Part shown: positions 7,002-13,567 of the stretch, one piece after another
Layout: each line of letters begins with the position of its first letter
How positions within the stretch are numbered: the first letter of the stretch is position 1
From: an uncultured Bacilli bacterium
GTDB taxonomy: Bacteria > Bacillota_I > Bacilli_A > RF39 > UBA660
Direction of reading: 5' to 3'
DNA length: 53,049 nucleotides
Assembly (NCBI GenBank): GCA_947632345.1
Contig: CANROW010000008.1
Span: 1 to 53,049 of the forward strand
The notes under the pieces: generated by a model
Database searches by the model: none
What the model was told of the DNA's origin: nothing
Seen by the model: only the letters and a program-made list of their open reading frames with translations
Position numbers and translations under genes: made by a program

Positions 7002-7610
7002 TCACTCACCGCGTTTAGCTATTTTAGAATATATGCATCCGCAAAAATCTTGACGATATAAATCATACTGCTTAGATAATTCAATGCTGCGTTTATAACC
7101 ATTTCGCTTTTTAAAATCGGCATACAAGTAATTTATGGAATACTCTTTTTCAAGTTCGGAACCAATTTCATTTAGCTTTTGGGCATCCTTATGTGGACTA
7201 ATTGACAAGGTCGTCGTAAAGTAATCAAAGCCATTTAACTTAGCATATTTAGCAGCTTCCTCTAACCGTAAACGATAACACTTAAAACATCTTTCACCAC
7301 GTTCTGGCGCATCTTCTAAACCATTAGCTATTTGCAAAAATTCTTTTGGCTCATATCTTCCTTCAACTATTTCAATTTTATTAATATGGGGAATTTCAGA
7401 AACTAATCTTTTCAATTCATTTAAACGCTTATCATATTCTTCACGCGATGAGATATTGGGATTATAAAAAAGAATTGTTATATCGAAATGATTAGTCAAA
7501 TACTCCAAGACATAAGAAGAACAAGGAGCACAACAACTATGTAGTAATAGTGTCGGTATTTTGTCCTTGTTCTCTTCTAAAATTTCTTCCATTTTTAATT
7601 GATAATTCAT
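7002..7610 (-). CDS. queH: QueH, epoxyqueuosine reductase
   Basis: QueH carries out the last step of queuosine synthesis in tRNA, reducing epoxyqueuosine, as an Fe-S and metal-dependent enzyme unrelated to QueG. The 202-residue protein has the family Cys motifs: HSCCAPC near the N-terminus, CFKCY in the middle and DFCGC at the C-terminus. ERGERCFKCYRLRLEEAAK and TTTLSISPHKD are typical. The ATG at 7610 sits well after AAGGGTG; the track GTG at 7619 overlaps that site. No other queuosine genes are in the window. Confidence 0.93.
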   Translation of the reverse strand: MNYQLKMEEILEENKDKIPTLLLHSCCAPCSSYVLEYLTNHFDITILFYNPNISSREEYDKRLNELKRLVSEIPHINKIEIVEGRYEPKEFLQIANGLEDAPERGERCFKCYRLRLEEAAKYAKLNGFDYFTTTLSISPHKDAQKLNEIGSELEKEYSINYLYADFKKRNGYKRSIELSKQYDLYRQDFCGCIYSKIAKRGE

Positions 7611-7624
7611 ATCAATCACCCTTT

Positions 7625-9367
7625 TTATTTCTTCGTACCTATCGTTTTAACCTTGGCCTTTTCTTCAGGTGGATAAACTTGTCTTTTAGCTTGGTCATTG
7701 ATTGCGTATAAGACAAAATCTTTTGGATCTTCGATGGTCTCTTTCTTCAAAATCAATTCTCCTTTTTCACCATTCAACAAACGCACTTTGCGAACAGCTA
7801 CTTGAAGCATATCATCGACAATTCTCTTTAAGCCACTAGCTCCTGCTTTTTCCTTCATTGACTTTTCAGCAATACATTCTAAAATTGTACCATCATAGAT
7901 AAGTTCGGTATTATCGACATCACTAAAAGCTTTTTCATATATTTTTAATGGTGAAATATTTGAATCAGTCAAGATAGTTACTAAATCACTTTTACTCAAT
8001 TCATTAACAACTTTTATAATTTGTAATCGACGAAGCAATTCTGGCTTTAATCCATACTTGATTAAATCCTCTGGTCCCAAGACTACTCTAGAATTATTTT
8101 CAGCATTCTTTTCTTCTTTAGAACTTTCATCAGGCGAAATGTTAAATCCTATTTGAACTTTTGTCCTTTTGTCATGCATTTCTTTCTTCTTTTGCTCGAT
8201 CAAATCTTGCGCCGCTCCGGCACAAATGAAAGTTAAATCCTTAGTATTGAAAGTAATAGATGAATCATGATAGTTCTCAGCTGGAATGACAATCTCATCA
8301 CCTTCAAGCATTTTGAACAATTCATCTTGAACATCTTGTTTGTTAATACCATTGCCAATTAATTTATCAATTTCATCAATAAAAACAATACCATGTTCGG
8401 CCTTTTGGATATCACCACCGCAAGCTGAAATGAGACTTCTTATCGCCTGTGATGTGGAATTTCCTACATAACCAGACGCCGTAGCAGTTGATGCATCAAA
8501 GAAAACAATAGGAATATCTGTATGTCTTTTTATTGACCGGACAAGCTCTGTCTTACCACAACCACTTGGACCTAAAATCAACATATTAGATTTCAATCCG
8601 TCGTGGTCATGATAATGTTTATTTTTATAAAGCATTGAAACTAGTGCTGACGCAACATGATCTTGCGCAATTACTTCAGAGCATACCATTTTTTCCAATT
8701 CATCAGGATCAAAATCATAATTGATTGGCGTAAAAGAAGTGTTTTCAGGCGTAATGGACTGATCTTCCTCAACGTCATCATCATAATCGAACATATTATA
8801 TGGTTGAACGACGACAATTGGTGTATTACCCCCAAGGGCATCACCAACTAGTTTAGCAGCCATCCGCATCATTTGTTCATTTGATAGAGCACCTACCTCT
8901 TGCATTATATCATCATTAACATCAATATTATCATTACTATGGGAATCATATTTATCCATGATATAGAATAAATTATCATCAGCCTGTTCATCATAGACAG
9001 AATACAAGAAATATGACCTAACACTACGTTCATAGACAATGAATGGATCGATTGCGACACCCTGTTCTGCCAACATGCTCAACATAACATCTTCTTCAAT
9101 TGGGAAAGCATAGAATAAAGTCCCATCATCCCAAGTGTCATAAACCATCTCATTTTCGAGTGGGCAAAGCAAATTATCTTCATCAGAACCAAATGTTGGA
9201 ATTACATCATTGACGCAACGATACTCTTCCTTCGTCTCTAAATCAGTAAAAACTTCCCGTCTAAAATCACACGTTCCCCTAATTGTCTTCACTGGTTTAT
9301 AAGCAACAACTCCTGCATCAGGATATGATGCTTCATATAAAACTGTATAATAAATTTTGTCATTCAT
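7625..9367 (-). CDS. ClpX-like AAA+ unfoldase with a non-ClpX N-terminal domain
   Basis: The C-terminal part (about residues 220-560) is a ClpX/HslU-type AAA+ module. It has Walker A GPSGCGKT, the substrate-gripping pore loop GYVG, Walker B GIVFIDEIDKL and a sensor-2-like GASGLKRIV. It also has an IGF tripeptide in KVQIGFNIS, matching the ClpX loop that docks on ClpP. The first 220 residues are not the ClpX zinc-binding domain. They are acidic, lack the C4 zinc site and are rich in Asp/Tyr, with a DYDDDVEEDQS linker. ClpP is not in the window. I infer a ClpP-partner unfoldase with its own substrate-recognition domain. It is not canonical clpX (580 versus about 420 residues). Confidence 0.85.
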   Translation of the reverse strand: MNDKIYYTVLYEASYPDAGVVAYKPVKTIRGTCDFRREVFTDLETKEEYRCVNDVIPTFGSDEDNLLCPLENEMVYDTWDDGTLFYAFPIEEDVMLSMLAEQGVAIDPFIVYERSVRSYFLYSVYDEQADDNLFYIMDKYDSHSNDNIDVNDDIMQEVGALSNEQMMRMAAKLVGDALGGNTPIVVVQPYNMFDYDDDVEEDQSITPENTSFTPINYDFDPDELEKMVCSEVIAQDHVASALVSMLYKNKHYHDHDGLKSNMLILGPSGCGKTELVRSIKRHTDIPIVFFDASTATASGYVGNSTSQAIRSLISACGGDIQKAEHGIVFIDEIDKLIGNGINKQDVQDELFKMLEGDEIVIPAENYHDSSITFNTKDLTFICAGAAQDLIEQKKKEMHDKRTKVQIGFNISPDESSKEEKNAENNSRVVLGPEDLIKYGLKPELLRRLQIIKVVNELSKSDLVTILTDSNISPLKIYEKAFSDVDNTELIYDGTILECIAEKSMKEKAGASGLKRIVDDMLQVAVRKVRLLNGEKGELILKKETIEDPKDFVLYAINDQAKRQVYPPEEKAKVKTIGTKK

Positions 9368-10189: not shown

Positions 10190-11026
10190 TTAACGAATCT
10201 TTTTCTTCGCTGCATAGTATGGCAAGGCCGCAACACCTGCATCACCAGGTAATTGTTGTAATTTTACTACTGGTTTAATACCATTGTCTCTTATCTCATC
10301 ATAGCTTAATTGATTCCAAACATCTGGTTGATAAAAGCGATAAAAATCCTCTTTATTCAAAACGAGATTTTGGGCAACATCAATACAATCGTCTCCCTTT
10401 TCAACCCAACTATGAAGAATCTTACCACTGATTGAAGAAATGAATCCCGTTACGCCTTTAGCCTTAAGTTTACAAGTCAAATAATAAGAAAGCTCATGGC
10501 AGCGATAGCCAGCACTACTCCTTCGATTGGTGAACAATTGTTTTTGCAGGTAAGCGTCACGAAAAGAATATGTATCCGTCAATTGGTAATAAGAAATCTT
10601 CCCACACTTCGTATCAATGATGAATTCTGGTCCATCGACACACATATCTTTTATTTGACCGCCGTATAAAAAAAGATTTTGTTTCAAGCCCTTTTCTCTA
10701 TCGGAATCACTTGTCTCCTTAGTAAAACAAGTATGATTCATCATATATTTCATCGTCACTGTTTCACTGGGAATTGTCTCTTGAATAATCTCATCATAAT
10801 ATGCTAAACAACCAGCCTGTTGGCAATAATTATATATTTTAGCCAAAGTCAAATTGCCATCCTTGGCTTTTTCAATCCACCAAGAATTATCTAAAAACTT
10901 GCCATCAGGACTACAAGCTGCTTTTTTGCGCACCGAAAGCAAAACATCAATCGTCCTATCCAGCGTCGAGTTTTCCTCAACTTGATTCTCCATTAAAAAA
11001 TCGTAGATTTGGTTATCTTTGCTCAC
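10190..11026 (-). CDS. Transglutaminase-like protein of unknown role
   Basis: This 278-residue cytosolic protein has a possible Cys-His-Asp triad in the order of papain/transglutaminase folds: the Cys of AGYRCHELSYYL, the His of ILHSWVE, and the Asp of DDCIDVAQNLVL. HSWVE followed by a strand with Asp is typical of transglutaminase-like enzymes. No signal peptide is seen, so the target would be inside the cell. The GTG at 11026 is 5 nt after AGGTGG, whereas the track GTG at 11035 overlaps that site. It is a single-gene unit with a strong promoter. The fold is inferred from motifs only. Confidence 0.7.
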   Translation of the reverse strand: MSKDNQIYDFLMENQVEENSTLDRTIDVLLSVRKKAACSPDGKFLDNSWWIEKAKDGNLTLAKIYNYCQQAGCLAYYDEIIQETIPSETVTMKYMMNHTCFTKETSDSDREKGLKQNLFLYGGQIKDMCVDGPEFIIDTKCGKISYYQLTDTYSFRDAYLQKQLFTNRRSSAGYRCHELSYYLTCKLKAKGVTGFISSISGKILHSWVEKGDDCIDVAQNLVLNKEDFYRFYQPDVWNQLSYDEIRDNGIKPVVKLQQLPGDAGVAALPYYAAKKKIR

Positions 11027-11055
11027 AATAGCCACCTATCCTTTTTTCGAGGCAT

Positions 11056-12249: not shown

Positions 12250-12395
12250 TTTATAAATAAATCACGTCCAAACTTCACAATTTGAATTTTCTCCTTCATA
12301 GGATAACTCTACCCTCCAGAGACCAATTTCCGATAGTCGCTACCGTACTTTTATTTTTTAATTTATTTTTAACCCATTTGTCCCATATATTTTCT
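12250..12395 (-). ncRNA. Candidate omega (reRNA) guide RNA of TnpB
   Basis: TnpB nucleases use an RNA that covers the end of tnpB and the element's right end, with the guide read from flanking DNA. This 120-bp non-coding stretch can fold (GGTCTCTGGAGGGTAGAG, AGTTATCCTATGAAGG) and reaches the right-end hairpin. If correct, the guide would be copied from the tmcAL 3' end. Boundaries are inferred. Confidence 0.4.
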
Positions 12396-13517
12396 AATTC
12401 CTTCCGTTAATATATTTATACTTGCATTTATATCTCTATCCATCTCATTTTTGCATTCATCACATACAAAACTTCTTATTCTTAAATCCTTTAGTTCTTT
12501 CTTTCTATTTCCACATATACTACATATCTGACTACTTGGATAATATGTATCTATTTTTATCAGCTTTTTTTTCTCCCATAGACACTTGTACTCCAATTGT
12601 CTTACTATTTCTCCTAAAGAACTATTGGCAATTCTTTTTGATAAATGATTCTTTCCTTCTTCTATCATCTCTTTTACCTTTAATGTTTCACATACGATTA
12701 TGTCATTTTCTTTTACTAACTTACTAGTTATGAAATTCGTATAATATTTCCTTGCATTTCTCAATTTCTCATAATATCTTTCTAACTTTAATATTATTTT
12801 TCTTCTATTATTACTTCCTTTTTCACTTCTTGATAATGCCTTATTATATCCTTTTATCTTTCTTTCTATCTTACCTATATTTTCTAGTGCTTTATACTTT
12901 ACTCCTTCACTTGTTATTACTAAATCTTTTACTCCCAAATCTATTCCTGTTATATATCTTGGTATTACTTCTTTATCTTCCTTTTCTTCTTCCACATTTA
13001 CACTCGCATAATATCTTTTACCAACCTTACTTATTGTGACATTAAATATTTTAAATGGGAATTCTATAAGATTTCTATATCCTCTTATTTTTAATTTTCC
13101 CATCTTTGGTAATGTTATTTCCCTTTTATTTAAATCTACTTTTATATTACTATAATTTTTATCTTTGTAACTGCTTCTTATACATACTGTTCTATATTTA
13201 TCACTATGGTTTTTCTTTTTATATTTTGGATATCCACTTCCATTATAAAAGTTTAAGTATGCTCTATCTAAATCTTCTACTGACGTTCTTAAACAAGAAC
13301 TATCTACTTCCTTTAACCATTCATTTTCTTTTGATAAAAAGGAAATATCTTTTTTCATATCCTTTAAAGTTAATATTTCATTATTTTTGTACATCAATTC
13401 TTTTTTATTTAAATAGTAATTATAAACAAATCGACTACAACCAATACACTTATTAATAAACTTTTTTTGTTCTTCTGTTGGATATAATCTAAATACATAT
13501 GCTTTATTAACTAACAT
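12369..13517 (-). CDS. tnpB: TnpB, RNA-guided RuvC nuclease of IS605 family
   Basis: TnpB is the compact RNA-guided DNA nuclease ancestral to Cas12. The ATG at 13517 follows GGGGG and gives 382 residues starting MLVNKAYVFRLYPT. The catalytic RuvC residues are present: Asp in GIDLGVKD, Glu in IIVCETLKV, and Asp in MDRDINASINI. The C4 zinc finger (CSICGN ... CDEC) is complete and the frame is unbroken, so the protein is probably active. The + strand ORFs over it are shadows. Its promoter contains a LexA-box-like palindrome. Confidence 0.95.
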   Translation of the reverse strand: MLVNKAYVFRLYPTEEQKKFINKCIGCSRFVYNYYLNKKELMYKNNEILTLKDMKKDISFLSKENEWLKEVDSSCLRTSVEDLDRAYLNFYNGSGYPKYKKKNHSDKYRTVCIRSSYKDKNYSNIKVDLNKREITLPKMGKLKIRGYRNLIEFPFKIFNVTISKVGKRYYASVNVEEEKEDKEVIPRYITGIDLGVKDLVITSEGVKYKALENIGKIERKIKGYNKALSRSEKGSNNRRKIILKLERYYEKLRNARKYYTNFITSKLVKENDIIVCETLKVKEMIEEGKNHLSKRIANSSLGEIVRQLEYKCLWEKKKLIKIDTYYPSSQICSICGNRKKELKDLRIRSFVCDECKNEMDRDINASINILTEGIRKYMGQMG

Positions 13518-13538
13518 TTTATTCCCCCTAACAGCAAC

Positions 13539-13567
13539 ATTATAATTCAAACATATGTTTTGGTCAA
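13539..13567 (-). promoter_or_regulatory. tnpB promoter with LexA-box-like palindrome
   Basis: TTGACC (13562-13567), 17 nt, TATAAT (13539-13544) on the minus strand. The spacer contains the perfect 12-bp palindrome AAACATATGTTT (13549-13560), close to the Gram-positive LexA consensus core GAACATATGTTC. It is in the same position as the box in the lexA promoter of this window. Confidence 0.65.

Follow-up and report, generated by a model that had tools for sequence, protein, structure and literature searches.

A ClpX-like unfoldase gene with an acidic N-terminal domain in place of the zinc domain in the Bacilli family UBA660

Introduction

Few unfoldases are as well conserved as ClpX, whose zinc domain and loops for reading the ssrA tag are regarded as standard. 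The window, meaning the whole stretch of 53,049 nucleotides analysed here, carries a gene for a ClpX-like protein from an uncultured member of the family UBA660, and the question raised by this locus is which substrates and which partner such an unfoldase would serve when these standard parts are missing. A preliminary description had read the protein as a second ClpP partner with a recognition domain of its own. A large family of small AT-rich bacteria that lacks canonical ClpX, and that has a fast-diverging derivative with an unplaced N-domain and a mostly changed tag ending, offers a natural case for studying how the specificity of an unfoldase can be rebuilt, and clpP deletions that leave an IGF-type loop behind provide a system for asking what this loop does without ClpP.

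The gene and its neighbourhood

An open reading frame of 580 amino acids was found on the minus strand, with a GGGGGA ribosome-binding site ahead of its ATG; the plus strand of the same interval contains many stops. The reading frame is kept in eight congeneric genomes at 27-56% identity, and queH is the next gene after it in congeners wherever the contig covers the site. Conservation at this level of divergence, both of the reading frame and of the queH pairing, shows it to be a real gene. The upstream side is occupied by yceD and a 64-aa reading frame resembling rpmF.

7625..9367, minus strand: gene for the ClpX-like AAA+ unfoldase (P0001); open reading frame, NF003745 match of 208 bits from residue 217, Foldseek match to ClpX at 6.6e-25
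7002..7619, minus strand: queH, an operon-like conserved partner 5 bp downstream of the ClpX-like gene; PF02677 match at 5e-73, synteny

The neighbouring genes evolve more slowly across the congeners, with 85-91% identity for IF2 and 69-83% for QueH. Within the ClpX-like protein itself, divergence is quicker in the N-terminal part than in the motor (32-43% versus 61-68% identity to the closest congeners).

Two further genes in the window were noted. The minus strand at 10190-11035 encodes a 281-aa protein without a match in Pfam, NCBIfam, PHROGs or PADLOC, whose site holds a 40% identical relative in congener G004 and a gene of 367-368 aa in others. At 12369-13550, also on the minus strand, a TnpB-like/IS605 OrfB transposase gene with a Cas12f1-like TNB domain lies between the pyruvate kinase gene and a HIGH-NTase gene, a spot taken by other genes in congeners.

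The AAA+ module

Homology to ClpX spans approximately residues 217-554 (NF003745, 1.9e-61; PDB ClpX sequence, 8.7e-46), and the AAA+ part also matches ClpX structures by Foldseek. The scores lie below the NCBIfam equivalog cut-offs, at 208.2 bits versus 359 for NF003745 and 180 versus 371 for TIGR00382. Identity as HslU was considered and rejected, as the HslU equivalog scored 63.6 bits versus 362 and no HslV (PF00227) was detected in 59 genomes.

7628..8713, minus strand: ClpX-type AAA+ module, residues 219-580; profile, PDB and Foldseek matches, high pLDDT
8549..8572, minus strand: Walker A GPSGCGKT, residues 266-273; G and K positions invariant in the family alignment
8462..8473, minus strand: pore-1 loop GYVG, G299-G302
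8363..8377, minus strand: Walker B DEIDK, residues 331-335; E332 invariant
8330..8362, minus strand: shortened pore-2 segment, 10 residues versus 18 in canonical ClpX
8246..8305, minus strand: segment at the expected place of the RKH loop, RKH missing
8144..8152, minus strand: IGF loop, I406-G-F408
8027..8029, minus strand: box VII arginine finger R447; Arg shared by all retrieved family members that are complete
7835..7837, minus strand: sensor-2 position, Ser511 for ClpX Arg370 (E. coli R370), GASGL versus GARGL

The first two claims about the motor held up, since G299-G302 align with the ClpX pore-1 loop and I406-F408 with the ClpP-docking tripeptide. The protein would form a ClpX-like hexamer. 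Eight of the eighteen residues of the canonical pore-2 segment are missing. In this subclade the sensor-2 arginine has become serine, so that the coupling to ATP may differ.

The N-terminal domain

Residues 1-218 contain 46 Asp or Glu, 13 Lys or Arg and only three Cys, with a pI of 4.05, and the C-x2-C...C-x2-C zinc site is absent from them. A search of the genome with the zinc domain profile PF06689 gave no match. With three Cys and no C4 site, a divergent zinc domain was ruled out, and the earlier view that an acidic N-terminus which could not be placed stands where the zinc domain would be was borne out by profile searches with this part, which found no match in Pfam, NCBIfam or PDB sequences.

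8933..9367, minus strand: N-terminal domain, residues 1-145, predicted alpha/beta; AlphaFold2 mean pLDDT 84, pTM 0.77
8714..8932, minus strand: acidic linker, residues 146-218, 16 Asp or Glu versus 2 Lys or Arg; poorly predicted, pLDDT mostly 33-63

The AlphaFold2 model of the domain has seven predicted strands (6-17, 20-34, 39-42, 48-51, 84-91, 119-126 and 131-138) and two predicted helices (92-101 and 108-116). Foldseek comparison of this model gave nothing significant against the PDB (best E 0.37, TM approximately 0.2 or less) or against BFVD (best E 0.23); when we call the domain unmatched, we mean unmatched in Pfam, NCBIfam, PDB and BFVD. Across the family, the beginning of these proteins is recognisably homologous. 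The N-domains of other Clp proteins suggest by analogy that this one may act as a recognition domain. One family ClpX-like protein, L024 (G011), matches IrrE/ImmA-type PF06114 at residues 21-81 (E 3.1e-5) rather than carrying the usual N-domain.

Distribution and phylogeny

Neither this genome nor any of 36 family genomes contained a canonical ClpX at the equivalog cut-off, and the zinc domain was found in none of the ClpX-like proteins of those 36. A single PF06689 match was obtained in the family (G017), but it was weak, below cut-off and on a different 260-aa reading frame. Ten relatives of the same class have an ordinary zinc-bearing ClpX. The search for a canonical clpX elsewhere in the genome having found none, the ClpX-like protein is the genome's only ClpX homologue. 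Thus the reading as a second ClpP partner fails as first worded, while the best reading is still that of a motor of the ClpX type equipped with a recognition domain of its own.

Of 193 family genomes searched with a profile of the variant, 83 contain the ClpX-like gene, and some of these carry two or three copies; at the cut-off used it was not found in the other 110. Neither the RKH motif nor the C4 site occurs in any of the 77 family sequences retrieved. In a tree with 73 of these 77, the family sequences are monophyletic (support 0.88); outside the family, the variant was found nowhere among the sequences searched. Given the long branches, we place no trust in the precise point at which this clade joins the ClpX tree. 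Judged by its sequence, the protein thus combines a ClpX-type core, without a zinc domain, with a family-restricted N-domain, and has lost RKH and much of pore loop 2.

Only seven family sequences lack an xGF-type loop, and six of these group together. The members of this IGF-less subclade (L026, L285, L288, L305, L306 and L312; support 1.0) are short, at about 450-465 aa. G208 has one IGF copy and one IGF-less copy, and G074 carries three diverged ClpX-like copies (L294, L295 and L296) and no detectable ClpP.

Patchy presence, fast evolution and up to three copies per genome are features that a phage-derived ATPase, or one belonging to a defence system or mobile element, might also have; phage ClpX-like proteins exist, and the AAA+ part is weakly similar to IetA (PADLOC). 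We nevertheless consider such an origin extremely unlikely, given that the phage ClpX proteins examined are either canonical or similar to those of Lachnospiraceae and do not group with the family clade, that tblastn of the N-domain against phages gave no match, and that the queH synteny, among translation genes, is stable within the genus.

The ssrA tag

In E. coli ClpX, the Ala-Ala end of the ssrA tag is read by Y153 and V154 of pore loop 1, T199 and V202 of pore loop 2, and R228 and H230 of the RKH loop (PMC7652416). Only the pore-1 pair is retained here; the segments holding T199/V202 and R228/H230 are gone. The genome's own tmRNA encodes a tag ending in AVSFA. Across 24 family genomes, 22 tags do not end in Ala-Ala, compared with two among nine relatives with canonical ClpX, seven of which keep the Ala-Ala end (p=2.6e-4, a value that ignores kinship). 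A tie between the tag change and the replacement of ClpX is suggested by this comparison. However, the change is not specific to the replacement, because AFA is likewise the tag ending of two canonical-ClpX relatives, G037 and G049. Two above-cut-off tmRNA matches were seen in one small genome, G030 (L363, at G030:C10, and G030:C3:50422-50797).

The protein could instead be a fast-evolving orthologue that still does the usual job of ClpX, including degradation of ssrA-tagged proteins. It is the only ClpX homologue present and it retains the catalytic motifs, but the zinc domain and RKH loop are gone, as is much of pore loop 2, the genome's own tag ends in AVSFA, and the gene was not detected at the cut-off used in 110 of 193 family genomes; we regard this reading as highly unlikely. 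Instead, ssrA-tagged proteins are probably no longer the main clients of the ClpX-like protein and are likely handled by Lon. In mycoplasmas, Lon is reported to have taken over ssrA tags (Gur and Sauer 2008; Ge and Karzai 2009). Both of these are cited in PMC3985003 and PMC11986505, and mycoplasmas, which are without ClpXP, have the same AFA tag ending (PMC3985003).

ClpP and the IGF loop

No clpP was found in the assembly, from which the conserved clpP neighbours yvcK, whiA, udk and gapA are likewise missing. Because these flanking genes are missing too, the absence of clpP is uninformative, reflecting an assembly gap, and a true loss in this genome cannot be claimed. The search for clpP proposed at the outset thus came out empty in this assembly and positive in five of the eight congeners. 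The other three (G001, G005 and G006) have lost it by clean deletion, leaving a whiA-udk gap of 55-78 bp (L380, L381 and L382). All three keep the ClpX-like gene and an IGF-type loop, reading VGF, IGF and IGF respectively, and in all three the pore tyrosine is replaced by leucine.

At the level of the family, ClpP is found in 70 of 83 genomes bearing the ClpX-like gene and in 94 of 110 others (p=0.84), indicating no association, and clpP is unlinked to the ClpX-like gene in the regions read. All 17 sequences from ClpP-lacking genomes have an xGF tripeptide, strictly [ILVM]GF-like in 15, and among 58 sequences from genomes with ClpP, 47 have the IGF-type loop in its strict form. Other proteases and Clp ATPases were also surveyed. 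The genome encodes Lon and FtsH as well as a ClpB lacking Clp_N, and the four homologues identified in the genus are of the ClpB type rather than the ClpC type; several other genera of the family have ClpC-type proteins with LGF, VGF or IGF loops. The ClpB-type disaggregase (L378, G000:C6) has 704 aa, and the same short form without Clp_N occurs across the family.

A partnership with ClpP is a reasonable inference from the IGF loop, and the family-wide occurrence gives it no support. The three deletions of clpP at its conserved locus, the xGF tripeptide of the ClpP-lacking genomes, the lack of association over 193 genomes and the ClpC-type proteins elsewhere in the family would all fit a ClpP-independent unfoldase or remodelling chaperone, whose IGF-type loop contacts another protein or subunit while ClpP works mainly with other Clp ATPases. 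Weighed against this, an IGF-type loop is the hallmark by which ClpX serves ClpP and is strict in most sequences from ClpP-bearing genomes, the losses of clpP may be recent, and some of the ClpP-lacking genomes are incomplete; we judge this alternative possible but rather unlikely. A more specific proposal, that the conserved loop is used with some partner that is not ClpP, that the new N-terminal fold picks the clients, and that selection on this arrangement persists after clpP is lost, is offered as speculation that is more doubtful still.

The reading we prefer, and hold to be moderately probable, is that of a lineage-specific ClpX derivative which took the place of canonical ClpX, with clients chosen by the N-domain and delivered to ClpP where it is present, and with ssrA-tagged proteins left to Lon. 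Under this reading, N-domains on acidic linkers would capture substrates or adaptors, and pore loop 1 would pull on the captured substrates and unfold them. In ClpP-bearing species the IGF loop would then dock on ClpP and the chain would be degraded, and ssrA-tagged proteins would have shifted to Lon, as in mycoplasmas.

Comparison with known systems

The protein resembles bacterial ClpX (NF003745/TIGR00382) in its AAA+ fold, Walker motifs, arginine finger, GYVG and IGF loops, but differs in having no zinc domain and no RKH, a short pore loop 2 and Ser at sensor 2. Variant-zinc ClpX-like proteins of Lachnospiraceae (L109, L112 and L117) likewise have an extended N-terminus and no RKH motif, although theirs keep a zinc-type Cys4 site, and L109 and L112, the ones placed in the tree, branch outside the clade of this family. 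The family's own ClpC-type ATPases (L391, L392 and L402) share an LGF or VGF loop and could serve ClpP, whereas they are built from a pair of AAA+ modules with another kind of N-domain. The switch of ssrA tags from ClpXP to Lon in mycoplasmas is similar in that the tag ends in AFA rather than ALAA and canonical ClpX is absent (PMC3985003), but in the family studied here ClpP is retained by most genomes, and a derivative of ClpX by many.
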